From Dermatophagoides farinae (lineage: Eukaryota; Arthropoda; Arachnida; Sarcoptiformes; Pyroglyphidae): DNA of 64,000 nt. Positions 3,401 through 56,287 of this stretch are shown one piece after another. The DNA lies in contig NC_134680.1 in assembly GCF_024713945.1 (NCBI RefSeq), positions 6,693,501-6,757,500 on the forward strand. Direction: 5' to 3'. Below the pieces are notes generated by a model that was given only the letters and a program-made list of their open reading frames with translations, was not told the origin of the DNA and searched no databases. Made by a program: the position numbers and the translations under genes. The first letter of the stretch is position 1. Each line of letters begins with the position of its first letter.

Positions 3401-4322
3401 AATGATGCTGTACAATTGACATTGAATCTAATGGGTGCAGAATATGAAAATCTAAACATTTGTGATATACGTAATAAACATTTCAGCCATTCGGGATTAT
3501 TACCACTGTATTTGGATAAGATTTGGTTCAACACCAAAATCGAACTGGCAATGCGTTATAAATTAACATTGAAATTAGATTTACCATTTTTGAATTGTGA
3601 AAATCAACCAACAAACACGGAAATTTTAAAACGTGCTATGGCCGATAAATTACAATTGAAACAAATTTCTCGTATGGAATATTCATTGATTACTAAAGCT
3701 AATTTTATGGTCATTAATACTGAAATGGCATTGAATGGTTTGTATTTTTCATTTATTATATGGTCACAAATAGCCACATTATTAGAATTCTTGATTTATT
3801 TCGCTCTTTTCTTTTTCAAATAGTCGATTTTGATGTGAATTCATTGGTCGATTTTGCTGACGATTGTTTAGGAGCCAAAACGGATGCCAGACCATTGAAT
3901 GTTAATGTCAAATTTATCTATGAGGTAATTTCGGTTTCTTTTTTTTCAACAACAAAAACTGGAAACAAAAGAAAAAAAATGAAACACAGTTTTTCACTTC
4001 AGTTTTCTTTTGAAGAAGATTTTTTTAACTTATTTTGTTCTTGTCATTTTTTTATTTTATTTCATTTTTTTCGGATTTTTTTTCCTGTCTGTACGACGAA
4101 ACGAAACGAAACGAAAAACCGAAAAAAATATGTTATTATAACGAACTGAACTGTGTGTGTGTGTGTGTAATGTACAAGTTCTTTAATCCTATCTGTGATA
4201 AATGGATGATGGATAGTTGGAAACCGAAACCATTGTCTTGGAAATTGGGCAAGGATTATCGCCAATCATGGTCACCAAATAATTGTACTGCTGCTGCTGA
4301 TGCTGATGCTGTTCGTGTTTGA
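460..4322 (+). CDS. Gene A: secreted vitellogenin/LLTP N-domain-like protein (8 exons, 914 aa)
   Basis: Exons 460-645, 750-1953, 2013-2176, 2650-2731, 2800-2868, 2943-3737, 3824-3924 and 4179-4322 join in frame. Residues 1-26 form a signal peptide (hydrophobic core ending SIHC). Exon 2 opens with VGDKYNYVM, like the first strand of the lipoprotein N-terminal domain of vitellogenins and apolipophorins. The family pattern follows: FRFIQLSDGSIQNIRL near residue 294 and VEESDLGLHYCNY near 340. An amphipathic helix-rich insert lies near 180-215. At least five basic, furin-like sites are visible (RHRKR near 257, RKKR, RTKR, RNRR, RSKR), so the chain may be cut several times. The last exons (FFNPICDKW) align with gene B. 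The superhelical region seen in gene B seems missing. A secreted lipid-binding or lipoprotein-related role is inferred. The family call is moderate; the exon model is good. Confidence 0.62.
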
Positions 4323-16900: not shown

Positions 16901-19900
16901 CTCCCCTATTTTCAGACAGAACCTGTGCCCATTATAATTCTTTGTGTAATAATAATAATGATGATGATGATGGTGTCACACATTTTTAGCAAGAATGACA
17001 TTCAATGTAACACACACCATACACAGAATATTTATTTCAAGATGTCAAATGTTTTATTTTTTTGACATTTTTCCATTTTTGCTTACGTTGTCGCAGTTGC
17101 TGCTGATGCTGATTATATTTTGATTCTTCGATTTTTTTTTCAGGCATTTTTTCTGTTGTTATTTCTACTTTGACAAAAATCTTAATTGTAAAAATCAAAG
17201 AAAATGTTTCAGTTTCATTTTGGACAATTCTCGAGAGTATTTTGAAATTCTATCGCAAAGAGAAGAGAAGTGAAAAAAAATTTTCCATTTTATTTCAGAT
17301 TAGCTTTTTTTTGTTCTTCACCATTCTACGATTAATTGATAAATGATGAGATTCAATTTCCGGAAAATTTTCCCCGAACAACAACAAAAGAAATGGAAAT
17401 TTTTTTTTTGAAAGCAAACAAAAATAATGAAAAAAAAATCTAATAAATGAATGATGAACGATGATGATGGAGAGGATGTCGTCATCGTCGTGGTTGTCAA
17501 CGGATTTTTTTTTTGTCAAAAAAAATAGAATATCATTACCATTTCTGTGTGTGTGTGTGGAATATATGCAGAAAACATTCATCGTCGTGCCAAACAAACA
17601 TCGATCGATTGGTCAATGATACCGATGGCCGATGACAAATGGTTTTGAATTTTTTTTTCTTTTTTCCATTCCAAGTTTCAGAATCCAAACCAAACCAAAA
17701 GAAAAGAAAAAAGAAAAATTTTTTGTTGTTGTTTTCTTGTTATACACAATGATTCAATAAATAAATGGACAAAATAATATTGATTATTACCTGAAAATAT
17801 CCATATCAAAAATGTATGTATGAATAAATCTATGTATGAAAGGTTCGTGTTGTTATTATCATCGTTTTTCGTAGTTGTCATACAAACTTTAGGGACCAAT
17901 CTATCAAACAGTGGAAAAAAAACTGATCTATCCGATGGGATTCACAGCAACACTGTGTGTGTGTGTGCATGCAATATAAGTGTTTGTTGTTTAGTTTTTC
18001 GATTCTTTTCGAGAGAAAATTCCCGAAAATGAAGTGAATGAATTTTTGATCAAAAAAAAAAACTTTTTAAAACACACTTTAAAACAAACTCGAAATTTTC
18101 ATTTCTCATGTCATTATTATCATGTTATGGGCATTTTGTTTTCATAAAAAAAAATTATCGGCAACAATGGACAATGGATATATAAAAATCAATATTTTTT
18201 TCCCCGGTCATAATGTTCTCGGTCAATGTTTTTTTTTTCGTTCACACAAACAAAACAAAAGTTGACATTTTTTTCAACACAAAATTGTCCTATCGGTGTG
18301 TGTGTGTGTTATGTGTGTGGTTTGATCTTTTCGATCCACACGATTCAATCAATATTTTTTTCATTCACTTGTAAACAAAAGTGGTTCGTTTGCATTGTTT
18401 GTTTGAACACAATGTTTTTTCATTTTGGCCGTAATCGTTGTCGATATATAATCATCATATCAATTTTTTTTTGCACTTTTTCCGGACATTTTGGCGTCAA
18501 AAAAATTTCAATTTTTTCCCTCTATTCTTTACACTGGATTTTCAGTGTACATTTTTTTTTTTGATCTTTTAGAAAATTGTTACACAAACAAAAAAAAGAG
18601 AGAGAGTGAAAAATAAAATATATAAACTTGTCACATGATAAACTCTCTCTCTCTCTCTCACTCACTCTCTTTATGTATTGTTCATCATCTCGACAAAGTT
18701 TGTTTTATTTCTATTTTTAATGTTCCGGTGGTGATTCCATTTTGTTTGTTTGTTTGTTTTTTTTACCAGTGACCAGCACAACAAAACACAACACTAGGGC
18801 TAAAATGTGTGTATGTTTGTGATATAAAAATCGGTATCGATCGATGAAAACTGCAAAAAGAAAAAGACAAAACAAAAAAAAAATTATTGTCACGATCGTA
18901 CGGTTGTACGAGAAAAAAGTTTCTTGACAACAAACAACAACAAAAAATAGGAGAAATTTTTCCTTTTTCAAGTTTTTTTTTCGTGGGTGTATTTTTTTCG
19001 AGTTTTGAATTTAAAATGAGCCCCTGTTATGATCCATAAAAAAACAACGATGGATCCAAGTGGACCGAAAAGATTAGATTTCAACAACAACAACAACAAA
19101 ATTACATAAATTTTATTTCAGACAACTTTATAAACGAGAAAAAATTTTTTTTTTTTTTTTGTCCGAATAAATCTGACTAGCGCAAGTAAAACATCCAACA
19201 TATAATCTACGTAGAACAATTGACTACGGTCGGCCATAATTATAGGGACAAAATGGAAATTTTTTTTTTTTTTTTTGTTCCAGTTTACACATCAATTTAG
19301 CAGTGAAAAAAAAAGACAGAAAAAAACAACAACAACAACAACAACAAAAAGAAATTTACTTTAATGAATTAACTTTTTTTCCACTCATTCAATAAATGAA
19401 CAAAAACATCGACATCATCCTCAGTCATTTTCATTATCATTATTACCCGTACAACGGATATTATATGATTATCGAGTGGAAAACAAAACAAAAAAAAATT
19501 CTTGGCACGAATTTTTTTTTTTTTGGTTGTTAAAAAGTTTGCTGTTTTGGAACATAATTATCATCATCATCATTCTTGTAATTGACTTATCTCAATATAT
19601 ATACAAATTACCCTAATTAATGTTGTTGGACCAATTCTGGATCGCTGCTTGATTCTAATTCTAATTTTTTTTTATTCTGTTTTCATTGATTTTTTTTATA
19701 CTAGCATGGAACGATAAGAAAATATTCAATCCGAACACAGATTGAATGGAAATCATCATCATTAATAAACAGCATTGATCCACAACCAAAACAACAACCG
19801 GAACAACAACAACAGCAGCGCCAGTATATAAGATCAACAATTGTTATGAAATGTTTGAATCGATTACAATGGAATCAGCAGCCAATGAATAATCATCTGA

Positions 19901-22900
19901 ATGGACAGAAATTTCTTGCAATCATCAGTGATTTTCATCTTGATCCATCGTATTCATCCATATATGATGATAATGAAAATATTATCGATGACATTGACAA
20001 TGATGATGATGATTGGATTTCGATTAAAAAAATCAACAACAATAATCATCATCGTCGTGATTATCGTAAAACAAAACGATCAAAACGTAGCCTTTATCGT
20101 TATATCAGGAATTTATGGCAAGATTTTCGCCGTATTCTTACACAGGATGAAGATTATTATGATGATAATGATAATGGTAAACAGCCAAAAATTAAAACAA
20201 CAAAAACATCACGTGATACATCATTCGATGATGATATGATCTTATCGATGGAAAATGAAATGGAAGCCACCACAACGAATAGAAAGTGCCATTATAATAA
20301 TGATAAATATTGGGAAGATAATACTGCTGCTGCTGCTGCTGCTGTTGTCGGTGGTTTATCGTCCACAACGGTGAAAAATAAATATTTTCTTTATAAATTT
20401 GGGAAAAATTCTGCTTCTGCTGCCACAATTTCCGATGATAATGAACAAGGATGTATTGATTGCAGTACTAGTAGTAGTAGTAGTATAAGGGGCAGCAGCA
20501 GCATAAATCCATTTTCGAAAATTTCTTTACCATTCTGGTTCATACAACTAACGAATGGATCAATTGTAGAGATACGGTTTTTGAAACAAGATACAAATTT
20601 GTACATAAAAAATTGGAAAAAATATCTACTTAGTTTGCTGCAGAATAATATGACTGCCACCACAGGAACCAATGTGATGGAAACAAATCGGTTCGGTCCA
20701 CATCATCAACAAGTTTATTATTACCGTAAATCAAACATATCGAAGAATGCCAAAATAGTCAAAATGGAAAAACATATCAAAAATTTCACTGATATTAACA
20801 AAAATGAGCTTGATGATGATGATGATGATAATGATTCACCACCGATCACCATGATTGATTCCGATCAAACAATTCTATTTGATCGTCACCAATCGGCCAT
20901 CATCGATTCAGCTGGAAATTATACAATAAAATTTAATCATCAAAATGAACTTTGGCCATATATGGATGGTCAATTGTATTATAATCTAAAGGTAAATGTA
21001 TGAGTGTGTGTGTACGATCAATTCGGCTCAATAATTATCGATTTGATTTGATTTAATTTGAATTAATTTGAAACTAGATGATACCATTCATACATGGTAA
21101 ACATGATGATACGGTTAAATTGCTGAATGAACATTTTCTAGAAAACACCAAACAAGAGACACTTGTTGCCCAGCAAAATGAACGTAAGTTTCGAATTTTT
21201 TTTTTGTTTAGATTTTGGATTTTTTTTCGTACAAATCAACCCGTTACAGATGAATCAATTTTGATGGAAAAATACACAAAATTATTATGGAAAATGCGTA
21301 GTAAATTGGGTAAAAATGAATATCGTTATTACACCACTTTATATGAAGCAGCTACAAGCCGAATGAATAGCCAAGGTAAGAGATTTTCATTTTTAAATTA
21401 CTAAATTGACAAATCAATCAATCAATCGATCGATCGATTAATGTATCAAATACAGAACATGATTTATTACTTACATTGATTACATTGGAACAACAATTGA
21501 ATCATACGATTCGTTCATATGATTCTATTATCGGCGATATACGTCGTATTGGTACGGCACATAATATACAATTAATTTGTGGCGTGAATCTCGGACAAAT
21601 TGTTTCGAATGAAAATTGTCAAGCATTCATCATGTTGTTGTTGAAATGTTCATCGAAAACAGCACAACGTGACCTGTTATATGCATTACAAAATTCAAAT
21701 CAACCCGTTGCTGTAAATCAAAATTCATCAGCAATCCAAAATGGTCAACAACTACCACAGAGAAAAATTGGTCAATTTGTAACAAGATTATTGCCAAATA
21801 CAAATCGACCATCACGTTGGTTTATCGAAAATCTTTTACATGAATTATATCGTCATCAACAACAAATGGCCACACCTGTTTCAGTATCACTTTTACAATC
21901 GTTAACATTGTTAGCCCGAAATGAACAGCTAATTAAATTGAATGAAATGCTCAGTGTTTTCATCCTGAAACGTATCGATGAAATTCTGATGATTTCAAAT
22001 GGATCAATGAATGTTCCACAGCAGCAGCAGCTTTATATTGTCGATCTAGTGAAAATGTTGGGCAATCTGAATAATTATACGGCCATTGAATCCGTCCATA
22101 GAAAATTAATGATGAATCATTCATCATCACCCTCGTCAACGACAATGACATTTACAACTATAGGTATAATACATGCATATCGTGAATCAATCAACAGGTT
22201 ACAAGTGCAAAAATATCTGATGGAAATGTTTGAAAATTCACATTCTCATGGATCATCATCATCATCATCATGTCAGATACGACAAGAAATTGTTCAATTA
22301 TTAATTAATAATGTAGACAGAATTTTCTACAACGAACAACAACAAAGACCAGAGAAAAAACGTTGGCCAAAATATGATTTCAATCAGCTGGATGAAATTC
22401 TTGCTCAAAATTTACGGTAAGTGAAAAAGTGTTACTGTTACCGAATCGATTCCCCAATTAATTCATTTGAATTCTAGAAATTCCAGTAATAACTGTGTAC
22501 ATCATTTAATAGTAGAATATTTTCAAAGAAAAACGAATAAAAAATCACACCAATATATTCGTGAATATGAATCAAAACAAAATTATGATTCAGCCAGTTT
22601 TGATTTTTGTATTAGCGAATCGAATGATGTTAAATGTGATTATGTACAAAAAATTGGCAATGATATGATCGATATGATTGTCAAAAAATCAATTTCAACA
22701 CCTAAACCTTTATCGGCTAATCAATCATTGTCAATTATTTATACAAAATATTCAATCGATATAAATCTATCATCATCATCATCATCATCATCACCATCAA
22801 CGTCGAGTAATACACGTTTAACATTAGGACATTTGAATGTTTATCAAACCGCATTCGCTCATCAACAGCAATTACGAATGGAATTTGATAATGTTTACAA

Positions 22901-25313
22901 TGCAGAAACAATGTTATTAGGTTATTGGAACATTACAGAATTGACGAATCGAACAAAACACGTAGATATCATACAAATTAAGTTGAACATTCCGACAATA
23001 ATATTGTGGTCAAAACGTTATCCTCATCAATTAGTTTATACAAAAATGATGAATGTTAATATATTGATTACATTGAAGAAATTGATCGATCCAAACACCA
23101 TTAATCATCATCGTAATCAACAACAACAACCAGATCAACATTTAAATCACGCTAAAAAACAATTGAAAATTAATTTCGATATTAAAACCAATGTTGAATT
23201 AATGGCAACGAGTTTGGCATGGAAAAATAGCATCGAATTAGAAAGTAAGTGAAAAAAAATGATGATGAATCGAATCGAAATGAAATGACACCAACCGTTG
23301 GTGATATTTGATTGATATAGGTCGATTTCAATATGAAAGCATACAGCCAATTTCGACAGATCAATTCAATAATGATCATGGTGGTGGAAATAGCCGTAGT
23401 CATAATCATAATCATAATGGTTTTGTCATTGAATCTGATAATAATAATCAATCGTCAGCCAACGTCCATCCATTTACAGAGGAGTTATTCATAGAGAATT
23501 CCTTACAATATCTTGGATCTGAATGGTTTCATCATGAAATTGAATTATTTCGTGAATTCAATAAGGTATGTAGAGGGTGCTGGTTGTGTTTTTCTCATTT
23601 CAAAACATTAACAGAATTAAAGAAGATTTTCTCTTCTTTTCGGGAAAAAGCCATTCAAAAATTTACGAAAATTTTTTTTTCAATTTTTCCCAAGAATTTT
23701 TTTCCGCTTTTTTTTTTGAACAAAATAAATATTGAATGAACCAAACAAACAAACAACAATAGTGTGAATAAAAGCATTGAAAAGAAAAAAAAGAATAAAG
23801 AATTTTATTCAAATGGAAAGCGTGAAAATTCTGAATAACAAAATATTCTGTTGTGCTATGATTATTATTATTATTATTACTGATGATGATGATGATGATG
23901 ATGGTGTTTCTAGAGTGAATATTTTCTTTTCATTTTCTCAAGTTGTCAGGACAACATTGCCCAAACAAATACAGGAATCCTTTTGAACAGAATAGAAAAA
24001 TTTATTAATGTTTTGGTGATGGAATCTACAAGAATATTTTTCCAATTGAAAGATGAGTGCACTACCATTATCATATCAATATCGATTGATGTGGCTGCTG
24101 TTAATATTATCATTTTTGCATCCAATTTTCATTTCGATATTGGAATAACACTCAAAACCTAAGAATTTGATGGCTTTCTCTCTCGGCTATTAATAATTTT
24201 TTTTTTCATTTTGACGAATTACAACAACACAACGACAGAAATGAGTGTTAATAATCAACAGAATGAAAAAAAAGCCACAGAAAAGAACCAATTTTTTTTT
24301 TGTTGCCAATCCAAAACGACAACACAATTCATAGTTTTAGTTGTTTTGGATTCATTTTTCCATTCATTCAATCGAATTATTGCAATTGCAAAAATTCTTT
24401 TGTTTGTTGATCGTCGATTGGTTGGTTGTTAGTCATTTCTAATATTTTTGTTCTCTCTTCTATTAATATTATATGACAAACGAATCACAAAAATGAATAA
24501 ATATAGATGGATAGATCGATAGATTTAATAAGATTTTTTTTTCGCTTTGCCGAAAAAGTGTATCAACAAGAACAGCAACGAAAATAATCATATCTTTATG
24601 TATCACGATACAATATTAAAAATGACAGAATGACGGAATTTTCCCTCAACAAATAAATAGTAGCTTGTTGTTTGTACAGAATTTACCGAAAAATCACTTA
24701 TACAACGACATTACAGAGATGTGTGTATGAACATTCTTGTTTCCCAGTCAAAATAATAAAGGAAAATAAAACGAAAAAAAAAATTCAGAATTGGAATTTT
24801 TTTTTTGTTTTGAAAGCAACAAAAACACAAAAACAGTAAAAGCACACAAATAAACCATCATCAGAGATCGAGTGCAATCAATCCTGATTCAAATCGAAAA
24901 TGAAAACGAATCGATAATACTTAGATACACAATATGGATGAATGTGGCAATCTAATTTTGTATCGAATTTTGTTTTCTCGGATTTTTCATTTGACTTTTT
25001 TTCCATTTTCCATTCTCACTTCTCATTCAATCGCTGTTTCTGTGTAAATTGTTTGTGTACAAAATGGCTTTACGTGATGATGAATCGAGCGAAAAATTGT
25101 TTCAAAAAATAATCCAAATTTTTCTTGTTTCGTTTTCACTTTTCCTCATCATTTTTATAGAGATTTGATCCACAATGTAATACATGGATAGATGAATCAT
25201 CATCCACATCATATGGATCATATCGGCAGACAATTTCATTTTGGAATTCAACATTAGTACAACGGAATCTATTGTCATTATCATTGTATGAAGGACAACC
25301 AGATATGGACTAA
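13960..25313 (+). CDS. Gene B: secreted LLTP-like protein with mucin-like extension (8 exons, 1563 aa)
   Basis: Exons 13960-15006, 19705-20991, 21078-21183, 21250-21375, 21456-22416, 22478-23244, 23321-23565 and 25161-25313 join in frame. Residues 1-29 are a signal peptide ending NIVLSA. The same frame is open up to an ATG at 13651, which would give a signal anchor about 100 residues in; I prefer 13960. Residues 30-345 are a Thr/Ser/Asn-rich, mucin-like stretch with many N-x-S/T sites. The lipoprotein-N-like part follows: IVMKCLNRLQW aligns with LELKCLQKINW of gene A, and FWFIQLTNGSIVEIRF near residue 627 with FRFIQLSDGSIQNIRL. RSKRS is a likely furin site. Exons 3-5 (residues 779-1175) are helix-rich and fit the LLTP superhelix. 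The C-terminal exons align with gene A (RFDPQCNTW). A lipid-transport or lipoprotein-related secreted role is inferred. Confidence 0.6.
15007..19704 (+). other. Large first intron of gene B
   Basis: The intron runs from a GTAGGC donor after Cys-Glu (residues 348-349) to a TACTAG acceptor before His-Gly-Thr, phase 0. At 4.7 kb it is about 45 times longer than the intron at the same place in gene A (646-749). It contains microsatellites, A/T runs and CT tracts (about 18643-18669), and no exon I can support. Some locally less repetitive patches occur at 16430-16620 and 16860-16940. Confidence 0.55.
23566..25160 (+). other. Last intron of gene B (1.6 kb)
   Basis: GTATGT donor after a phase-0 Lys codon and a TTTTTATAG acceptor before Arg-Phe-Asp-Pro. 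The matching intron in gene A (3925-4178) has the same phase and place but is 254 nt. The content is AT-rich filler with an ATT/GAT repeat near 23862-23901. Nothing else is recognised. Confidence 0.6.
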
Positions 25314-37570: not shown

Positions 37571-38784
37571 TCAGGCACAATCACATGATTTGACAACCAT
37601 ATTTGGTAAATTTTTCTGATAGATATTATAATCATTATCGACATAGATTAATGAAATCTGTGTTTGAGATGAAAATGAAAAGAAAGGAAAATAATGAGAT
37701 GAAAGCAAATGATGTGATGTTTTTTGTTGTTTTGTTAAATACAAAAATAACAACGATGATAATGGTTTGAAAAGACACTTACCGATGACATTTCTCTTGG
37801 TGAACAGCATAGTTTTATTATCGGATATTTTCCTGTTTCGTTTTTTTTTTCATCATTATTTATTCATCATTGTTTTTTGGTTAGTCGATTGGTGAGTGTT
37901 TGTGACATTTTTTTTGTTGTTGTTCATTTGCATATTGATGTTGTTTCAAGGGCCAAATGGTAATAATGTTTGTATGTGAGTGTGTGCATTTGAACAGCAG
38001 CAAACAGGCATCCAAAGAATGAAAACAAAAATAAAACAGAAATTTTAGTCAAACGGTCAAGTAGAAAAAAATGGATCAAACGATCCAAACAAACAACAAA
38101 AAAAAACATAAACATGAAATAAACGAAATTACATTGGGAATAAAATGTAAAAACACACACACACACAAAAGGTGTCTTAGATCTTTTGGTAAATAATTCA
38201 TGTGATTTTCATCATCATTCAGTGTTTATCAACCTGAATCAACTAAACCAAGAAGAATAAAAAAAAATTCTCTACTGGATTTGTAACCAGAAAAATAACG
38301 TTACTACTACTACTGGAATTGTCTAAACAAAAAACAAAAAAAAAAAATAACAAAATAACGGTGACAACAAACAAACATGAAACACAAAGTTATATAATCG
38401 ACTACCCATTACCGTTATATTTCGACCATTTTGACGAAAAAAAATCTTACCACACACACACACACACGTTTATTGTTGTTGCTGTTGTTGTGAACAAAAT
38501 AATGATGATGATGATGAAAATGAAAATGAAAATAAAATGAAATATATTGTGTGTGTGTGTGTGTGTAATATGGGCCAACAAACAACAACAGTAATAATAA
38601 AAACATGAAAGAAAGTAAAGAAAAAAAAAGATCGACAGAATGATGAGATTTTCATGTAATGGACATTTTTCTGTTTGGTTGTTGTCATCATTTTCTTTTG
38701 TGTTCTATTTCTACATTTTTTTTCTCTCTCTCTTGGTTTATTGTTGTCGTTGTTGTTGTTGTAGATAATCATCTTTCTATCCCA

Positions 38785-38824
<40 letters not shown>

Positions 38825-41800
38825 AGGGTGGTGCTATTCTGTTCCTGGTTTGCAAACAACAAAATGATGATGATGATGATTCAAGTAGATTTGGAAAGGA
38901 TTTTGTAGCATTTTTTTTTTGGAAAAAGATTTCATTTCATTTCACAACAAAACGGATATGAACTAAGCAAAAAAAATTTTTTGTTTCTGATGGTCTTTTT
39001 TCATTTGTTTGTTTGTTTGTTTGTATCAAACAAACATTTGTTGGTGGATAAACGAGCAAAAAAAAATTTGTAAACTTGAGACAAATGTCAAATGTTTTTT
39101 TTGAATAAACAGAAAACTGACAATTACTGTGTTTGTTTGTTTTTTTTTTTTTTTTTTGGCGCATACACACACACACATACAAGGAAAACAAAAATCTTCA
39201 TGATTCTTAATCAATCGCCATACTACCTGCACATGAATTCTATTTTTTGTGTGTGTGTGCGTGTGTGTGTGTGAGGTTAGTAAACAGAATTTAGAATTTG
39301 TCAAAATAAAAAAAACAAAATGAATCTATATTACCAATAACGGTTGTATGATGATAACGAGCATGGCTTACATCACATTGTCCTTTTTTAATTTTAGAAA
39401 TGTTGCCAGTCAGGATTTTTTTTTTTGTTCGATGATACAATTTCCAATTGCCAATCGAAGGAGAAAAATGTCGATTAATTTCATGATGTATGTATCGATT
39501 ATTGGTGAATTATCGATTTCAAAAAAAAAATAAAGAGAAGAAAAAAAACATATTGGAAAAACAAATTGAAAGAATTGAATAATAAATATGAATAGAAATT
39601 CAATATAAGTGAAATAGAATTGATTGAATCGGAATCGATTATTATTATGATTATTGATTCATCATCATTATTTATCATCATGTGTATGAATGAAAAATGA
39701 TCCATTCGAATTGACGATTGATAATTGATTCGGTTTTTTATTTCTTGATTACAATATCAATATCACTAACAATAACAATATATGATATGGCTCAATTATT
39801 ATTCACACACACACACACAAACAAACAAACAATCAATATCAATTTTATCGGATATTATTTTTCACATTTCCCCCAATACTGAAATCAAAAAAAAAAAAAA
39901 TGAAAAACGAAAATGAAAGCAAATACACCATGATCGATTTTTTTTCGTTTGTTTATCCGTATCAAGAAAAAATAACGTTCAATTTCTAATTGTGGCTAAT
40001 AACAAACAGAGAAAGCTCAAAGCAACCAACAAAAAAAAACTAAACTAAATTATTTATTGATTAATTAAGATGATTTTTCATTTTTATCACGAGATATAAA
40101 AATATTTACTTAGATAAAATGACTAAAATAGCTAAAAAGACTGCTGCTGAGCCAAAAAGAAGCCCTTTTCTTTCTTTTGGTTCAACAGTATTTCGTGGAT
40201 CGATCCAAATTGAGCTTCTTTGTAGAGTGTTTGTGGGAAATTAGATGCCTTTTTTTTCTCTCTCTCTCTCTATCTCTCTGTCTCATAGATCATCATTCAT
40301 CAGACAGCCAACCACCACAACCACACACACAACATAAACTCTCAATATTCTTGGATTCTGGTTCGTTGCACTTGGAACAAACACACACACACACAAAAAC
40401 TGACAAGAGAAAAAAAAGAGAAATAAAACTTGAGGGATTTATATATTGTGCTCACTCAGTGGCACACACACACACACAAACGACTTATCGATGATGATGA
40501 TGATGATGACTTATGACTGAAGACTTTTCATTCGGGGGCCAAGAAAAATATGTCAACTCTAATTAAGAATCGACATAGTAATAATTTTAGAAAAATCATT
40601 CTACTAAGTCAAAAAAGAAAGAATTTTCACTTTATCACATCACACACACACACACAATAATGATTCTTAAGTGAGACATTCAGAAAATGAAACAATAATT
40701 ATTATGACATTATTAAAGCCAAAAAAAAAGGAAAAAAACCACAAATTATGATCCAAAGATGTGATCCATTTCATCACCATGATCATAATAAGCTATTTCT
40801 ACATCAACATGTTTTTTTTTTCGTCTCTCTCTCTCAATAAGCTTATTGATTCTTTTCATTTATTCAATTAAATGAGAACATCGATGTGTGCGTGTGTGTG
40901 TGTGTGGAATTAGTCCGATACCGCAACACACACACACACAGAATGTCACCGTTGAAAGAAAGAATAAAGAAAATTAAGCCCTAATCAACCTACACATCAT
41001 CAAACAATAGACGAAAAATTTTTTTTTTTCGTTCCATTATTCATTATTAGAAACAGAATGACATTGTTTCTCGGTAAACGACGTTGTTGATGATGGAGAA
41101 GAAAAAATTGAAATTGAAAAAAAAATTAATTTCCGTTGACATTTACAGAGAGAAAAAAACAACACAACACACACACACATAAACTCAGGAAAATCAATCA
41201 AAAATAATTTTCTTCTATTTTCAAATGAGAATCAAGAAAGAAATTTTTAATTAAAATCATTCTATTCTGAGGAATGAAAGAATTTAGAATTTTTCATTCA
41301 ATGTTCATTTTACCGTTATGAATTCCGGTTAATATCATCATCATCATCATCATTGAATCCATTGATTCAATGATCAAAATTGGCTCACAAACAAACTTGC
41401 ACATTATATACAAGTATATTATTTTCTGTCTTTCGGGTTATTCTGGGATTTTTTTTTTTTTTTGGTTCATTCCAATAATAATAATAACACACCAGATGAG
41501 AGAAAATGAAAAAAAACCGAACGGAAATTGAAAAATAAATTAACTAGAGCCACCAACAACAAAAGATTTTTTCCATACTGAAATAATGATTGTGTGTGAA
41601 ACAACGAGAAAGACATAAATGATTATATAAAACGAAACACACCACCACACCACAATTATAGTAGAAATGGTGTGTGTTAACGATGGGCTTATTATTATTA
41701 CTTCTATGGCACCGTTTGTTAACCCCCACACGGACGATTGAATGATGTTTTAATCGATAATAAAAAAAAGATGTGTGCGTGTGCCCTAAAGTCTTCGTCA

Positions 41801-42316
41801 TGTCAAACAACAGAATTTAAACAAAAAAAATTTTTCCAATATTTTTTCCCATCAATTTTTAGCCCGTCATCATCATCATCATCATCATCATAAGCGGTGA
41901 TGAGGTAGTATTTTTGGAACTAAAAAGATTTATCGAAACCAGAGACACTGACACAAACACACCTGCCTTTGACACAATAGCTATTAATGTAGTGTTTTAC
42001 CTTTATTATACAAAATATGGTAATAATTATGTGGACATTTTATCATTCAAATCAAATATAATTTTGTCCGTATAATAATTTCCTTTCATATATGATGACA
42101 TAAGGTTTTTTCTTTTTCTGTTTTTTTTTTCATTTGTTCAAAAAACACCAAAGTCAATCAAAAAAAAAAAAAAAAAAAATGAAAAAAAAACAGCAAGAAA
42201 AACAGGGAAAAGAAGAAGTAGGGGTTTGAAACAAACACAGACACACGAACAAGAGAATAGAACGAAATGGATGTATGGAACATCATCATGATAATCAACG
42301 GGAAAAAAGAATATGA

Positions 42317-42347
<31 letters not shown>

Positions 42348-44871
42348 GGCGTATACCTAAATTTTCCATTTTTTTTCACCCACTATATTCTTGGGTCCCG
42401 TGTGAATTCCCGTGATGTTCCAAATGTTTTGGAAAAATGAAAGAAAAAAAATGGAAAAACATCACCATCATCATCATCAACGACATACCTTTACAATAGT
42501 TGGCATTATATCCGGGTGGCTGTAATATCCAATTGTTCCATCCTACAAAAACGATGATGACGAGAGAAAAAAAGTGTCAATTTAAATGTGCACGGTATTT
42601 ATATACATGTGTGTGTGTGTGTATGTGACGGTTATCGTATATCATTCACATGGGATGAGAATCGATGATGATGATGATGATGATTTCCAGAGAATATACA
42701 CACACACACAAGCACAGAGAGAGAAATTTCCAAGTTTTTTGACATTGTAAAATTATTTCATGATGTGAAAAAAATAGACAAAGTTTCAAAAAAAAACGTG
42801 GAAAATGAATGAATGAACGATGAAGATGCAAATTTATAGTGAGAGAAAGAATAAAGTCAAATGAGAAGATGACAGTTGACATTGACAGAAATATTGTAGA
42901 AACATCAAAGATCGGAATTGAGGCAAAGTTTTTTTTCCGTGTCGTTTTGTTTTATTTTTGTTCCAATTGAAACGAGGTGTTGTTTTTGTTGTTGTTGACG
43001 TAGATGATGATGAAAAAAATTCATTTAAAATTCATAAGATTTGGCGATAATGGTGACAATGATGACATCCATGGAATTAAAAAAAAAAGAAAAAATGTTA
43101 GATATCAAATCATCATCGATATAAATGAAAAACTTTCTGAGCAAAAAAAATTTTCAGGAAATTAACACAAAACAACATACCGATTGTAGTAAAATTCACA
43201 TAGAAGGGTTGACGACAACAGAATGATACTTTATCTGTACAATCTACGCTACGTTTCGCACGTAATAACTATATATATTCCATTGCCAAATAAATGTGTC
43301 AAAATCAATCATCATTTCCAAAAGATTCATCGTCGTAAGAATCGTGTTGTTGTTGTTGTAAAGATTTTCAGAGGCCAAGAAAAAACGATAATGATAAATG
43401 ATGACATACAAGAAAACAGAAAAAAATGTGTCAAACAAACAAAAAAGCAAAAATTAACACAATACCTTATTATTGTTAACATTGGTCATTGCAATCTTGA
43501 TAAATGAGCTTTGTATTTCGAAATTTTCATTATAAATTCGTATCATGTCTAATGGCGACGAAGATGATGATGACAATCGACCATTACTAACATTTTGGCC
43601 ACCATCAAGACGACGATTATCACCATTATCATTCTCATCATTTTGGCTATTATTTAACAATAATAAATTGGTCACATCATATTCGTATGTCATTGTCGAT
43701 GATTGTTCTTCATTTTGTTGTTCAGTTGTTGTTTCAGCCATTAATCGTGATGTTGGCGATGCAATAGTAATCAAATCAAAATTATCATCAACATTTTTAT
43801 TGGCAGAAGAATGTAAAACAGCATTTCGTTTCAATTCGATTAAGCCGGATACAGATGATATTGATAAATCTAACAACGGTGATGACAATGATTGATCAGA
43901 AATTTTATATTTAACTAGAATAATGATTGATTTTATCATTAAATTATCATTCGATGATTGTTGAATTATCGATTGTAAATCAAATATTGGTGATTTTAAT
44001 TGATAATAATGATAATGTTTAGGCAATATGTAAACAATCTGTAAATCTTGATCATCCAAATCTTTTGAATTTGCTTGATTTTTTTTCATTTCTTCATCGT
44101 GTTCAGTATAGTCAGCATTTCGTTTTGCCGATGTTGATAATTGGCCAACGATTCGCGCATCTTTTTGATTTGATTTCCAAGTGCAAAAAACATCAAAGAG
44201 AGAAAAATGAAGAAAATTAATTTTTGGTTCATAGAATGAAAATGATACATACACATATTAATCAGATCAATATCTGGTTGATTTGGTAATTTTGGCGGCT
44301 CTTTCAAACCGAGTTTATTCAGAATTTGTTCTTTAATGAATTCGATACGTTGCCGATATTCTTCATTCGAATCTTGATACATATAATCACCATTGTTTTG
44401 ACAGCTAAAACATTGACGATTTCGATTCAAATCGGGCAGAATTGTCGTTGTAGATGGATACGTATTGATCATCATCATACTTTGATTGTTGTAAGGGGAT
44501 AATGAATCATCTATTAAGGCAGCACTTGTGATAACAGGTGAATGGGGAATTTCCCTGGTAATAATTGGTGTTGGATTGACAGATTTCTGCGATATATTTG
44601 CTGATGAATCTGATTGTCGCCAAAATAATAATGATTTTGTAAATGATGGAAGAAAATTTGCAATTGAATATTCACCATCATTATTATATTGACTATTATT
44701 ATTATTATGATTCCATTGATTACAATCGATAATTATTGGACCAGATGTCAATAAAAATAATATGGATAATAATGAAAATTGTTGAAATAAATTCTTTGTT
44801 CCATTACGATGGCGATGACGATGATGATTGATATGGCCACTATGAATGGCCCAATAAATAGTAATAAGCAT
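37571..44871 (-). CDS. Activin/inhibin-beta-like TGF-beta precursor (7 exons, 546 aa)
   Basis: Minus-strand exons 44871-44253, 44160-43466, 43268-43181, 42542-42489, 39382-39335, 37832-37783 and 37657-37571 join in frame. The precursor has a hydrophobic signal (LLSILFLL), a prodomain with CFSC (154-157) and RIEFIKEQILNKLGL, typical of the activin/myostatin branch, then RAKR (441-444). The mature 102 residues start SVDC and carry nine cysteines in activin order: VDC, FCC, NYC, GQC, LCC, SC, DC. WNNWILQPPGYNANYC matches the family core and VVKSCDCA the end. It is a secreted dimeric ligand for activin-type receptors feeding Smad2/3 signalling (family knowledge). Which arthropod ligand it matches (activin-beta, dawdle or myoglianin) is not settled; the CxxC prodomain and N-terminal extra Cys favour activin. 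The start is uncertain: the frame is open to 44997 through a CA repeat. Confidence 0.88.
37833..39334 (-). other. Intron 5 of the activin-like gene (1.5 kb)
   Basis: Donor GTAATA and acceptor AACAG in minus-strand sense, phase 1. Content: CA/GT microsatellites facing each other (38453-38467 and 38548-38566), a long CT tract (38785-38825) and A/T runs. No other gene seen. Confidence 0.6.
38785..38825. repeat. CT/AG microsatellite
   Basis: A dinucleotide CT tract with one short interruption. On the minus strand it reads AG, and in-frame translation gives only Arg-Glu repeats, so the open frame over it is not a gene. Confidence 0.9.
39383..42488 (-). other. Intron 4 of the activin-like gene (3.1 kb)
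   Basis: Strong GTATGT donor after the NYCK exon; the acceptor AAAAAAG precedes the 48-nt exon beginning with Gly-Gln-Cys. Filled with microsatellites (including CA at 42321-42347) and A/T runs. I scanned it on the minus strand for other pieces of the mature domain and kept only the 39335-39382 exon. Confidence 0.6.
42321..42347. repeat. CA microsatellite
   Basis: An uninterrupted CA tract of 27 nt, one of the longest of several dozen in the window. It lies in intron 4 of the activin-like gene. Minus-strand frames over it give only Cys-Val repeats. Confidence 0.9.
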
Positions 44872-49069: not shown

Positions 49070-49641
49070 TAATAATAATAATAATAATTTTATTTTATTA
49101 CGGGCGCTATTCCAATCGGAATAATTCGCAAAAATATTAAAATTAAAAATCAAAATTATAATTAAAGATAGCATAAAAATTGCCTAAAATAAAATAAAAG
49201 AAAAAAGGGGAGGAATTATGTGTGTTGTTGTTTGAGTGAATTGTATATGTAAAAGTATAATTTTGTGAAGTTTTTGTATGTTTCTTTGTTTTGAGTAAAG
49301 TCATGTAATGTGTGAATGTTCTCTAGGTTTAATTCCATTTTTTTAATGGTGTAGTGTGGACAGTGAATGAGTAGATGAATTGTGTCCTGTGTTGTGTTTG
49401 AACAAGTACAAGTGTTTGTGTTGGAGCGTTGTATTCTGTGTAGGTAATGTTGAAAGTGTCCATGACCTGTGAAAAATTGTTTAGTGTAGAAATTAGGTTT
49501 TATAAATTTTGGAATTTTTGGGTTTGTAAAGAATTTTTGAAAGGTGTCGTTGGTTTTTGTGTATGTGTGTGTGATTGCGTCTTTTTTTATGTTCGATATG
49601 TATTGTATTGGTCTAATGTTGTGTTGTGTAAGAATTCTAGC
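49070..49641 (-). mobile_element. 5'-truncated non-LTR retrotransposon (LINE), 3' end only
   Basis: The minus strand encodes the C-terminal tail of a LINE reverse-transcriptase polyprotein, stop at 49216-49218. The segment TGHGHFQHYLHRI, then C-x-C, then T-x-x-H-x-x-x-x-CPHY, is the conserved end of R1/Jockey/I-type elements (TGHG then a CCHC-like cluster). The reverse-transcriptase domain itself is absent, so the copy is dead on arrival. A 3' UTR of about 146 nt ends in an (ATT)n tail next to the left target-site duplication. The 15-bp direct repeats have no mismatch, which suggests a fairly recent insertion. Clade assignment is from the motif pattern only. Confidence 0.82.
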
Positions 49642-49656
49642 CGGTCGAAATAGGAA
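49642..49656. repeat. Target-site duplication, right copy
   Basis: Identical to 49055-49069; marks the truncated 5' end of the LINE. The first element base after it (minus strand) begins GCTAGAATTC. Confidence 0.8.
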
Positions 49657-49750
49657 AAGGTGGCAATAGGCAGGATCATGCGCAGCCAGTTGACTGCTAC
49701 AAGAGATTGAATAAAATTTTTGAATCAAAATTTCAAAAATTTTTCGCCAC

Positions 49751-52700
49751 TCATTGATTATTATCATCATTATTATTACTGGATGAAGCGTTGACAACAA
49801 ATGGATATGAACCATCATTGGATTCAGTATGATGGTCTTCTTCTTCTTGATCTTCCGGTTCAAGCTGTTGATGTGATTGATCAACAATTTGTTCTTGTTC
49901 ATTATTTTGTTCAATTTGGTCATTATCATCATCATCATCATCATCATCAATTTGTATGACATTCGATGATGATGATTGTCCAGCTTCTTCTTGCATTTCA
50001 TCTTCTTCATCATTACCACCAGAATTTGGATTATCTAATGATTGCTGGTGTGATGATTCCTGTTGTTGTTGTTGAATAGTAACCATTTGATTACCGGAAT
50101 CTACCATATTACTGTTGGTGTCGGTATTATTATCATTACGTTTCTTTTTAGCAATCTTTAGGCCAATATCTGGATGATCATCATTAGATGATGATTGAAA
50201 TCTTCGTTTATGAAGATTATTCATTGATGATGTTGATGGTATGTTTGTTGTTGCTGGAAAAAATGTTGATGTTGATGATTGAATTGACTCCATAGAATTA
50301 TCATCCATCATTGATGTTGTATGTGACGATATCTGTGCTGATTGTAAACGATTATTATCCAAATCATGATCTTCATTATGGCTACCAGAACTAGATGTTG
50401 GTTGATGACGATTTATTAGATTCAATATCTTTGTTGTCGATGTCATCGTTGTCGTTGATGATGATGATGATGAAGATGTACTTGGTTGTTGTTGTCGATG
50501 TAAATTATGATTGGATGATGCTGATACAATTGTCGAGCTAACCGATTGACCAGTGTTATTGTGACTACTACCAGCAATCGATGGTTGATCACCAGTAACT
50601 ACATTACTGGATGGATCCATAATTTTCGATTTATCCGATAAAATTGATCGTAGAAAATTAATTTCTTTATCACGTTCATTTAATAATTTATCCATATTTG
50701 ATAAACGATTTTTTGCTTGTTGTCCAATTGATCGTGCTTTTTGCCTAGATTGTTCAGCTTGTTGTTGAAGTTGATTGATTTCTTGTTCTAATTGTTCAAT
50801 TTTTTCACGTAATTTTTCATTTTCACTTTGAAGATTTTGAATACGTGTTTCTAATTCATTCTTATTATCCGTATCGAGCTGTTGTTGTTGTTGTTGCTGA
50901 TTATCTTTAGAACCAGATTGTTGTAGCTGCTGTTGTTTTTGATATTGTTCACATTGTGATTTATATTTACGTGCCAGATTTTTCAATTGATGATTCATAG
51001 TCTGTAAAGAGGATAGCTCATTTCGAATTGATTCAATTTGTTTTTCTGATTCATCATGTTGTTTGCTAGATTTTTCTTGCATTGTAGCCAATTCTTTACG
51101 TAATGATTCCAATTCCAGTGTTTGTTGTTGATATTTTGCCCGAATTTCAATAGATTCTTGTTCACTTTTTTGATGTTTAACATTCAATTCTGAAAGTTTT
51201 GTTTCCAATTCATGGGCATAAGATTCAGCTTGCTGTAATCGAGATTGTAATGTTGCAATCATTCCAGCATCGGCAACCTATGAAAAAAACACACATTTTG
51301 AAAAATTACTATTATATTGACCACTATTAACACATACCTTTTCACGTGAATCTTCCTGATGTAAACGTTCAATTTCAATTGATAATTGTTGACATTTTCG
51401 TGATAATTCATCATTATCATTACGAATTTTTTGTAAATATTCTTGAAACTCATTTTCTTGCATAGTAGATTTTCTGGTTTTCTGTTCACATTCTTGTTGC
51501 TTCATTAATAATTGTTTCATTTGTTCATATTCATGTTTTTCACGTTGGACAGATTGTTCAAGATTAATGATTGTCATACGCATTGAATCCATTTCATTTT
51601 GGTGGCGTTCATCGTGCAAATCAAATGTTTTCAATTTATCCAACAGGGATTTATTCTGTCCAGTTAGATTTTCAATCACATTTTTTAACGTTGAGACATC
51701 AGGATCATTGTTCTGCAACGAACGAATCGATTGGCCTAGATCATGATTAAGTTTTTCATTTGCTTGGATTAATTCCAATTTTTCCGAGTGTAATTGTTCC
51801 ACATTTGATCGTAACGCTTTTAATCTTTCATCATAACGTTTTGATTCGGTTGATTTTTCTCTTTTCAATTCGATCAATTTTATTTGTTCATTTTTATGTT
51901 GTTTTTGCCATTCATCTGCTTGCTGTTTCAATCGTTTGGTTTTTTCTCGTAGCGATTCCAATTCCATTTGTGACAAACGTAATTCCTGTTGATATTTATC
52001 ACTTTTATTCAATGATAATTCTTTTTGTAATTCTTCATTGGTTTTTGTAATGATTTCAATTTTCTTTTCCAATATTTCAATCGATAAATTTTTTGCCATT
52101 AATACCGTTGTTTGTAAATCTTGCAATTCCTGTTGATAACGTTCAATTTCTTTTGTCATTTTGGACTGTTGTTGGTTGATTTTCATTTTCGATTCCGTTT
52201 CTACAAGATTTATTTCGGCTAAAAGTCGAGATTTCTCAGCATTCACTACGGCAAATTCAGATTCGATTCGTAACTTTTCTTGTAATAATTCTTGATTTTC
52301 GTGATTAGATGTCAATCGTTTTTGTTTCAATTCATTCAATTCTTTTGTCAATACTTCAAATCTTTCAGCCATTTCATTATCTTGTTGTTGATGTTGTGAT
52401 AGAAACCGATTTTCCAATTCTAAATTACGATTTATCTCATTTCGTAGATTCGTTTCCAATTGTGAAACGTTTTCAATGAAAATCAATTTTTCATTATTCC
52501 ATTGTTCACGTTGTTTTTCAAATGATTCACTAAGATTTTCATGATCCATTTTCATTCTTCCGATTGAATGCAATAATTCATCATCAATTAAACATTTGTT
52601 CTCGGTGAGCGATTCAATAATAATTGCCAAACGGTCTGTACGTCCAGTGTCATTATATAATGACGATAAACGTTCCACAAAGTATCGTTGTCGTTGTTTC

Positions 52701-54654
52701 AATGATTCCAATTCAGATTTACAACTATTCAATTCAATTTCCATTCGTAGCGAACGTTGACGATAATCCGCTGCTTGTTCGGACAGTATATGCCAATTTT
52801 TTTCAGCCATATCTTTCGATTGTTGTAATGTTTCATTCATTTTTCGTAATTCATTATTTGATTGTTCCAATTGTTTCAAACGTTGCGATTGTGATTTTGA
52901 TTGTTTTTCCATTGAAACAAGCTTTTCTGATTGCAATTTTCGTTGTCTTTCCAATTCATCGTTAATCGATTTCAATGTTTTCAATTCGGCATCACATTCA
53001 GTGAGTTTTGCATTCGATTGTTCTATAGACGTACGTAATGATTCATTCGCTGCTTGTAAATCGTTGATTATTCGTTGTGATTGAATTTTCTCATCACGTG
53101 ATTCAGTTTTCATATTGGCCATCAAGCTTTTGAGTACTTCATATTCACTATGTAGTAAGTCATTCCGAACTTGCCATTGTTGTTTCTCCATTTCCAACAT
53201 CTCTAATCGTTGTGTCAATAGATCGATACGATTTTCATTTTCAATTATATTCTGTTTTTCATTTATAAAATTCAATTTTTGCTTTTCAAATTCAGTTTGT
53301 AGTTGATGAAATTCCTGAAATTTATTCTGCAATTCCATTACATATTTCAAGGCCAACATTCCGGTAGAATCATCATTGCCATCACCAGGGACAGTGTTTT
53401 GATCATTAATTTGATTTGTTTCATGTTTAACAAGGACATCGATTTTTTTGGAAAGATTCTGAAAATTATCATGAAACATTTTTGCACCATTGTGTAGGGA
53501 GAGAGCGGAATTTTTATAGAACTTCAAGGAGATGGCCAATTCTTTATTTTCAATCTCAATTTTCAGCATTTTATCTTCCATTCGTTTCACGCGTTGTATT
53601 TCTTTCATCAATGTCGCAGTAGATTGTTCCATATCGTCTAATTGCTTGGACAATGATTGAACACGTTCTTCAAGTACAGATTTCTCAATCACAAGATTCT
53701 TATTCATAGTTTCTGTCTGTAAAAATTGTGAATAAAGTTGACTTATTGAACGATTACGATCAAATATGTGGCTAAACATTGAGATGTTTGGATAGAATTT
53801 TTCCAAATATTTTTCCAACATTTCTGTTTTGGATTTTTCAAAAACCGCGTTCAACTGTTCAATTTCCAATCGTAAATTATCACATTCATTGATTTTAATT
53901 TGATATTTTTCTTCAAATTCATTGTGTATTTTTTGATAATTTTCTTCATTGGTTTGTAGTTTGTTGGTTAATCCAGCAATTTGCTGCTTGGATTCATTCA
54001 ATTGAATTTCCAATGTTTGACATTTGGATCGTGAATCTTCAAGTTCCAGGCGTGTCTTATCATTGGTTTGATTTTGAATTTTCAATTCATTTTTCAATGA
54101 TTCAACAATTGTTTCATGTTTTTCACGTTGTTCACTTGTAAATTTTTGCAAATCATTCATATAATTAGTTTTTGATTCGATTATTTTTTCAAGAATTTCA
54201 TTTTTATCACGTAAACAAGGCAGCTCATTTTCGCATTGAAATAATTTCGATTTTGATTCAATCATTTCAATGAAAACATCTTGATCATTCGAAATTGCTC
54301 GATTCGAATTGGTATTCTCGATGATCTTATCAATCATATTGATTATCTGATCATTCGCGTTTGGTTCATTATGCAATAAATTTTTAAGACTCAAAAGTTG
54401 ATCATGACAATTGGTTCGAATGTTTGATAATTCCATTTTTATTTCATTGTTTTCTAAATAATAAATTAATAAGTTAATAAATTTCACAGTCCGATAAACA
54501 TACCTTTTGTAAGATTTTGATTATGAAAATTGAGATCATTTAACGTTACATTTTTCTTGTCAACCACACCGATTAGACGACTAATTTCCGATTCTAGTGA
54601 TTGAAAACGATCGGAAATAATGGTCACTTGGGACGGATTTTTTTCTTTGTCCAT
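49751..54654 (-). CDS. TPR: Nucleoprotein TPR / Megator-like coiled-coil protein (3 exons, 1597 aa)
   Basis: Minus-strand exons 54654-54504, 54453-51338 and 51277-49751 join in frame. Residues from about 20 to 1290 are almost continuous coiled coil (heptads of Leu/Ile with Gln, Glu, Lys), then an acidic Ser/Asp/Gln-rich tail. The segment at about 273-294 (NISMFSHIF, then SISQLYSQFL) and the following run of ELEK-like helices match the conserved N-terminal block of TPR/Mlp, and LKNLARKYKSQ matches its later IGRRYKTQ-like motif. TPR forms the nuclear-pore basket and takes part in mRNA export, chromatin exclusion and the spindle checkpoint (family knowledge). It is shorter than fly or human TPR (about 2350 aa) and nearer the yeast Mlp length. 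The start ATG has NFU1 only 284 bp upstream. Another long coiled-coil protein is the main alternative. Confidence 0.72.
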
Positions 54655-54938: not shown

Positions 54939-55964
54939 TCAATCAGGCGACAATTTTGTTTCGAATTTTTCAAATTCTTCCTGATTAATACGTTCAGTTT
55001 CATCCATAACCTGTTCAACAGACATGACTTCAGGAATATAGAATTGTAACATATTCTGGATGCCATTTTTCAATGTCACTACCGATGATGGACATGATGT
55101 ACAAGCACCTTGAAGTTTTAGTCGAACGATACCGTTTTCAAAACCCTGAAATTGAAATTTGAAAAAAAATTATCATTCAGATTCAATCCACACACATACC
55201 ATGAATTTAATATCACCACCATCTTCCTGCACTGTTGGCCTGATTCGTGTATCAATCAATTCCAAAATCATTGCAACGGTTTCATCATTATCGGTCGATG
55301 TCGTCGTTATAGGTTGTTGTTGTTGATTCAAATCTTTTTCCACACCTTCCCTTAAAATCGGTAAATTTGTAGAGAAAAAATCCATAATAGCAGCAAAAAT
55401 TTCTGGTTTCATTATTTTCCATTCATTATCATCATCAATTTTAGTGACGGTTATATAATCCGTGCCGAAAAACACAGATCCAACCCCATCGATTTTGAAT
55501 ATAGCTTCAGCTAATGGTGAACGTTTCAAAGCTGAAATTGGTGTAGGAAAATCTATAGTCGTACCACTTTCAAGAATCTGTCGACCAGGAAAGAATTTCA
55601 AACTATTCGGATTCGGCGTCTCTTCTACCTGTATGAACATTGATCTTTCTGTATATGAGAGATATATATTTGATTTTAGAATTGTCGAATTCAAATTTAG
55701 CTGATACTCACTTTGGACTAGATTTATCGTTGATCTTGAAACGCACTTTGAATTAGCAATCATCAATGTATGATGCGAACGATTGGACGGCATTTGAATC
55801 AATGGCCATCGTCGAGAATCGAATTGTTGACATGGTTTAATGATGGATGATTGTTCAACTATTTTTAAACCACTATGACAATTGATGAAACGATTGAATT
55901 GTCGTGATAACATTGTCATTAATTGTTGATGATCATAACCAAAAAAAAACAAATTTGTTTTCAT
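54939..55964 (-). CDS. NFU1: NFU1 iron-sulfur cluster scaffold, mitochondrial (3 exons, 302 aa)
   Basis: Minus-strand exons 55964-55712, 55648-55200 and 55145-54939 join in frame; both introns are short (63 and 54 nt). An Arg-rich, acid-poor N-terminus beginning MLSRQFNRF fits a mitochondrial targeting peptide. The Nfu N-terminal domain starts [19 protein letters not shown] near residue 88 and continues through [18 protein letters not shown]. The C-terminal NifU-like domain has [12 protein letters not shown] and the cluster-binding CxxC in GACTSCPSS (Cys249, Cys252). NFU1 receives or carries a 4Fe-4S cluster and delivers it to lipoyl synthase and respiratory proteins (family knowledge). The first ATG at 55964 is used; in-frame ATGs at 55919 and 55913 would put the targeting peptide at the very N-terminus and may be the true start. 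Confidence 0.93.
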
Positions 55965-56287
55965 CGAATCAAATAAAATGAGATCACGTGTTTGTCTGGA
56001 TGAGCTGTTCACAAACGACGATTCCGAATATTTTTTCAAATTTTTTTATTTCATCAATTTTCAATCATAACAAAAAAATTATAATTTAAAAAGAAAAAAA
56101 ACTGATTGATTGTATATAATGCACACGATAATAGAAAGACAAATCTGAATTCAACGGTGATTAGAATTAAAACGATAACAAAACAAAACAGCAAAAAAAT
56201 TGATCAGATTCCAAATCAATCATTATAAACATCAAATCAAAGAAAACATATAACAAACAAGAATTTCGCTATATCACAATTCTTCAT

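Follow-up and report, generated by a model that had tools for sequence, protein, structure and literature searches.

On the minus strand of one region of the Dermatophagoides farinae genome, a TGF-beta ligand domain appeared to be distributed over five very short exons. This raised the questions whether these pieces belong to one intact gene, whether each of them is placed correctly, and which kind of ligand they would encode. We analysed the whole stretch of 64,000 nucleotides in which they lie (C4:6693501-6757500, hereafter the window) together with the genome, which was searched as 22 contigs with 62,435,336 bases. Judged from the sequence, the locus is very likely an intact protein-coding gene of D. 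farinae whose product is a secreted, activin-like member of the nine-cysteine branch of TGF-beta ligands, i.e. a gene of known kind with an unusual layout.

Gene model and test of the exon borders

Splicing of the five ligand exons (88, 54, 48, 50 and 87 nt, with start phases 0, 1, 1, 1 and 0) yielded LLRAKR followed by 102 residues, nine of them cysteines, and a stop codon. The introns within the ligand part measured 638, 3106, 1502 and 125 nt in the order from exon A to exon E. With two further exons for the prodomain the full model comprised seven coding exons and 1641 nt, encoding a precursor of 546 aa in an intact reading frame, and all six introns were of the GT-AG type. The features of the model are as follows (percentiles refer to the 48 introns used for training the splice-site model).

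44253-44871, minus strand: coding exon 1 (619 nt), with start codon, hydrophobic leader and early prodomain including the cysteine pair RQCFSC; it starts at the first ATG of the open frame
43466-44160, minus strand: coding exon 2 (695 nt), remainder of the prodomain; similarity to PF00688 spans the joint between exons 1 and 2
43181-43268, minus strand: ligand exon A (88 nt), with the furin site LLRAKR, cysteines 1-3 and the start of finger 1; from the spliced profile alignment
42489-42542, minus strand: ligand exon B (54 nt), with GWNNWILQPPGYNANYCKG and cysteine 4; from the spliced profile alignment and a genome-wide half-domain match
39383-42488, minus strand: intron B/C (3106 nt), donor gtatgt at the 88th and acceptor at the 25th percentile
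39335-39382, minus strand: ligand exon C (48 nt), with QC of CxGxC, a short pre-helix loop and the start of the heel helix; the weakest-supported exon
37833-39334, minus strand: intron C/D (1502 nt), donor gtaata at the 17th and acceptor at the 2nd percentile
37783-37832, minus strand: ligand exon D (50 nt), with the end of the heel helix and CC; from the spliced profile alignment
37571-37657, minus strand: ligand exon E (87 nt including the stop codon), with finger 2 and CDCA before the stop; from the spliced profile alignment and a genome-wide half-domain match

By the standards of this genus, two of the introns (3106 and 1502 nt) are long and the exons of 48-54 nt are short, since the medians given for D. 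pteronyssinus in the available text of one study are 71 bp for introns and 253 bp for exons (PMC7591027).

The exon borders were tested with a profile built from the ligand domains of four D. farinae paralogues and of human activins A and B, from which the window sequence was excluded. This profile was aligned to the DNA with GT-AG introns permitted in every phase, each at the same fixed penalty, and it returned the identical five exons with identical borders. The real window scored 196.5, compared with a mean of 58.8 (SD 5.0, maximum 71.2) when both strands of 48 dinucleotide-shuffled versions of the window were searched. The minus strand scored 53.9 once all five exons were masked, and the plus strand scored 48.0. 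The first-pass annotation had proposed the same five exon lengths and phases within 37571-43268 and introns of up to 3.1 kb, and both the splicing and the profile alignment reproduced this structure, the longest intron measuring 3106 nt.

Masking of single exons lowered the score by 30.2 (A), 69.7 (B), 0.7 (C), 29.1 (D) and 63.8 (E). No substitute appeared for A or E, and the substitutes returned on masking of B, C or D were multi-piece chains resembling those from shuffled DNA. Mutually exclusive duplicates of the ligand exons were rejected as a candidate on this basis, since none of the five maskings brought a convincing further copy to light. The same result bears on alternative splicing as an explanation of the layout. 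Exon B (54 nt) and exon C (48 nt) are each bounded by phase 1 on both sides, so that either can drop out of the transcript in frame; the resulting proteins would lack a portion of the cystine knot and could be inactive or blocking products. Given that no convincing second copy of any ligand exon was found, we regard this explanation as very unlikely.

Support for exon C and for the splice sites

Among the five ligand exons, exon C is the one whose homology alone was not above chance, masking costing only 0.7 of 196.5. When exon C and its flanking introns (about 4.65 kb, from B to D) were shuffled 200 times, the real score was reached 68 times at an intron penalty of 9, 29 times at 14 and 37 times at 18. 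These values, together with the donor gtaata at the 17th percentile, would fit a correct gene with a wrong exon C, i.e. a true middle exon that is differently bounded or is situated elsewhere between B and D. Exon B, however, ends with CKG, so that the next exon must provide x-C in phase, and in the stretch from B to D just two acceptors were found that complete CxGxC with the glycine in frame. Besides that of exon C, there was a single one, and it led to exons of just 12, 18 or 27 nt with CVCV-type residues. When exon C had to complete CxGxC and finish at a donor in phase 1, equally good results came from 47 of 2000 shuffles; with the CxGxC constraint and splice-site scores combined, exon C was matched by 37 of 10000 shuffles, and by 2 of 10000 after codon scores were added, figures that are somewhat flattering since the constraint was picked after exon C was known. 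On balance we consider a misplaced exon C improbable.

The splice-site model used here was crude and self-trained on 48 introns, drawn from 20 further stretches of 10 kb each and from the window outside the gene. Because of this, and because the constraint was set post hoc, we grade exon C, as read from the DNA, as likely but not proven. A chain of three pieces (41966-41949, 40523-40476 and 38322-38305) could replace exon C within 0.7 in score. It was treated as a chance result because it encodes low-complexity residues and shuffled DNA often scores as high.

Splice-site scores of the gene were low in several places. All six acceptors were at or under the 25th percentile of the 48 self-found introns under this crude model, and intron 1 (between exons 1 and 2) and intron 5 (between C and D) had low scores at both sites. 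The donor of exon 1 was weak (4th percentile) and the acceptor of exon 2 scored under all 48 training introns; nevertheless, when splice and codon scores were combined, this pair ranked first among 65 frame-keeping pairs. The encoded prodomain showed similarity to the propeptide family PF00688 at residues 173-276 with 20.4 bits (E 4.3e-4), which does not reach the curated cut-off of 25.8. By eye, a hydrophobic stretch was recognised at residues 28-48 of the precursor.

Family placement, heel region and candidate signalling partners

The spliced protein matched the Pfam family TGF_beta (PF00019) with 92.9 bits (cut-off 27), and its best relatives among solved structures were activin B (1.2e-26), then activin A. 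The earlier description as a 102-residue activin-like ligand is thereby supported. Characteristic marks of TGF-beta ligands were present as CKGQC, CC and CDCA before the stop, where the second cysteine of CxGxC depends on exon C, and a furin-type RAKR site precedes the ligand in exon A. The ligand contains nine cysteines, compared with seven in the BMP-type ligands examined. In a tree of ten ligands the window gene fell within the nine-cysteine group (support 99/98), with its position inside the group not settled and without placement in a named subfamily.

Resemblance to activin (inhibin beta A and B) extends over the nine cysteines, the patterns GWNxWI...GYxxNYCxGxC and NMxVxxCxC, and an early cysteine pair in the prodomain, located at residues 154 and 157 in the mite gene. 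In the available text of one study such an early pair is described for Activin, Dawdle, the inhibin betas and myostatin/GDF11, and a late pair (CxxC, in beta8) for Activin, Dawdle, Maverick and inhibin beta A and B, though not for every member (PMC7017013). The late pair was absent from the prodomain of the window gene, where cysteines were found at residues 50, 154 and 157 only, whereas a D. farinae paralogue (L003) has one (IDCAGC, by eye). As this second pair is missing, we use the term activin-like and refrain from assigning the gene to the activin subfamily in the strict sense. The division of the ligand domain into five exons is a further difference from activin.

Another deviation concerns the heel region. 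From CxGxC to CC the window ligand has 21 residues, the shortest distance among the ten ligands compared, the other nine having 24-35. Activin has 34-35 residues at this place and the D. farinae paralogues have 24-31. The shortfalls sit within exons C and D around the heel helix. A missing exon between C and D is unlikely as their cause: the sequence across the joint, HTTVI-GKY, is in register with HSTVINHY of activin A and the shortfalls lie on either side of it, so that no exon need be missing. A related shortening has been engineered in the mini-monomer mmTGF-beta2, in which the heel helix was replaced by a loop and which is described in the available text as a soluble monomer (PMC11865472). 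Both proteins share a shortened heel helix region, but the mite ligand retains HTTVIGKY and the CC motif. Since the mite ligand still has the CC motif and some of the helix, we do not predict monomer behaviour for it.

The trimmed heel region may alter the preference for receptors or partners. A broader proposal, that an activin-like ligand with a trimmed heel, a five-exon domain and two exons that can be skipped in frame has changed its choice of receptor or partner, possibly tuned by splicing, is speculative and in our view improbable. If the trim is real and shared, it would represent a natural test of the role of the heel helix.

The short heel region could also be a sign of decay, with the domain of a duplicated activin-like ligand breaking up. 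The long introns of the gene and its end branch, which was the longest in the tree (0.99), would agree with such a history. However, all nine ligand cysteines, CxGxC, CC, CxC and RAKR are retained, and no stop codon or frameshift was found in the 546 codons of the model. We therefore consider a decaying gene extremely unlikely and prefer an intact ligand gene.

For such an intact gene, a pathway can be proposed in line with the activin subfamily, whose members bind a receptor of the Baboon/ALK4 type and activate Smad2/3. A precursor of 546 residues would be read from the seven coding exons and cleaved at RAKR; the released ligand would pair through the CC motif as a disulphide-linked dimer and might signal via a Baboon-type receptor to Smad2/3. 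Candidate partners were found in the genome. Frames for a type I receptor, one ending with ADNK and the other starting with DNGTW, were located (L040), with an apparent intron inside the loop, and three receptor GS motifs were found. One Smad has the C-terminal end SSMS (L047), another ends with SSVS (L043), and a co-Smad-like gene was also detected (L046). We take the ADNK/DNGTW loop to mark the receptor as Baboon-type and the SSMS end to mark a Smad of the Smad2/3 type.

Exon layout and the other ligand genes of the genome

An intron-blind scan of the genome with PF00019 recovered four other ligand domains and missed the window gene. According to their best solved relatives the four were of the activin type (C9:2896451), the GDF8/11 type (C9:2864209), the BMP2 type (C1:5522326) and the BMP6/7 type (C3:1791670). 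The activin-type and GDF8/11-type genes lie about 32 kb apart on the same contig and on opposite strands. All four are likewise TGF-beta ligand domains, but each is contained in a single open frame of 116-460 codons, compared with five exons in the window gene.

Two half-domain queries derived from L003 gave five matches each in the genome, namely the four paralogues and one exon of the window gene (exon B at 8.5e-5 and exon E at 0.0026). A further split ligand gene could have escaped, because these queries skipped the other exons of the window gene and only the best candidates were scored. The complete 102-residue query returned ten genome-wide matches, consisting of the four paralogues, five pieces of the window gene and one weak match with two stop codons. 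Beyond the mite genome, six stretches matched in the viral contig set (viral_contigs) and none of them was confirmed. In the genome contig set (genome_contigs) one of 36 was confirmed, a stretch of 25 residues with 52% identity to ligand residues 72-96 on a Companilactobacillus contig (L019 5001-5075), which is probably a chance match.

That the ligand domain lies in one or two exons in most animals, as the first-pass annotation had assumed, proved roughly correct, with a qualification. It agrees with the four single-frame paralogues and with a lamprey paper, whose available text places TGF-beta ligand domains in the final two exons (PMC8931421), but not with sea bream TGF-beta6. The mature peptide of the latter is encoded by the last 11 residues of exon 5 and by exons 6 (154 bp) and 7 (156 bp), and a further intron is said to split the last exon in trout TGF-beta, which would make four pieces, both according to the available text of the same paper (PMC2881917). 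Introns thus cut the mature peptide in the sea bream as well as in the mite gene, into three pieces in the former and five in the latter. The border between exons 6 and 7 of sea bream TGF-beta6 presumably falls about 4 nt from the C/D border of the mite gene, in another phase, when placed by way of a TGF-beta2 sequence, and this proximity could well be due to chance.

The five pieces of the mite domain exceed those of any gene in our comparison set, which consisted of the four D. farinae paralogues and the vertebrate TGF-beta genes named above. Most simply, the introns in the ligand domain are extra introns of a single gene that either arose in mites or were inherited from an ancestor, and the splitting of the domain probably has no function of its own. 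The locus illustrates how far exon structure can diverge in a deeply conserved signalling domain while sister genes in the same genome stay single-exon, and an exon chain missed by an intron-blind family search can now be named. If the intron positions are common to other mites, they would provide a marker for tracing activin-like ligands in chelicerates.

A literature search by title and start of abstract yielded no paper on activin-like ligand genes of mites, which does not prove their absence from the literature. The main text of a D. pteronyssinus transcriptome paper contained none of the terms activin, TGF, inhibin, myoglianin and gbb. The first-pass annotation had further supposed that automatic gene finders would probably drop the 48-54 nt exons and that database entries for the gene may be absent or truncated. 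The intron-blind PF00019 scan did pass over it; for D. farinae, however, RNA-seq data and 41,602 Iso-Seq transcripts are described in the available text of one study (PMC8487952), and a transcript-based annotation may well include the window gene.

The window contains further coding sequences besides the ligand gene. No RNA families at the gathering threshold and no tRNAs were found in it. Next to each other at 49751-54520 (minus strand) lie two long frames of 508 and 1080 residues; they look coiled-coil-like and, by eye, resembled nucleoprotein TPR, with no Pfam match above cut-off. The end of a frame at 49216-50034 (minus strand) resembled, also by eye, the tail of a non-LTR retrotransposon protein, with no Pfam match at E 0.01. 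On the plus strand, two stretches with long frames (750-3823 and 19705-23252) appeared to be tandem relatives by eye (FRFIQLSDGSI and FWFIQLTNGSI) and are perhaps vitellogenin-like, with no Pfam match above cut-off. At 55173-56045 (minus strand), an Nfu_N domain (PF08712, 101.2 bits) identifies a frame as an NFU1-type iron-sulphur scaffold gene. The window also encodes a group 2 allergen, which agreed with Der f 2 at 119 of 120 residues, more closely than with Der p 2.
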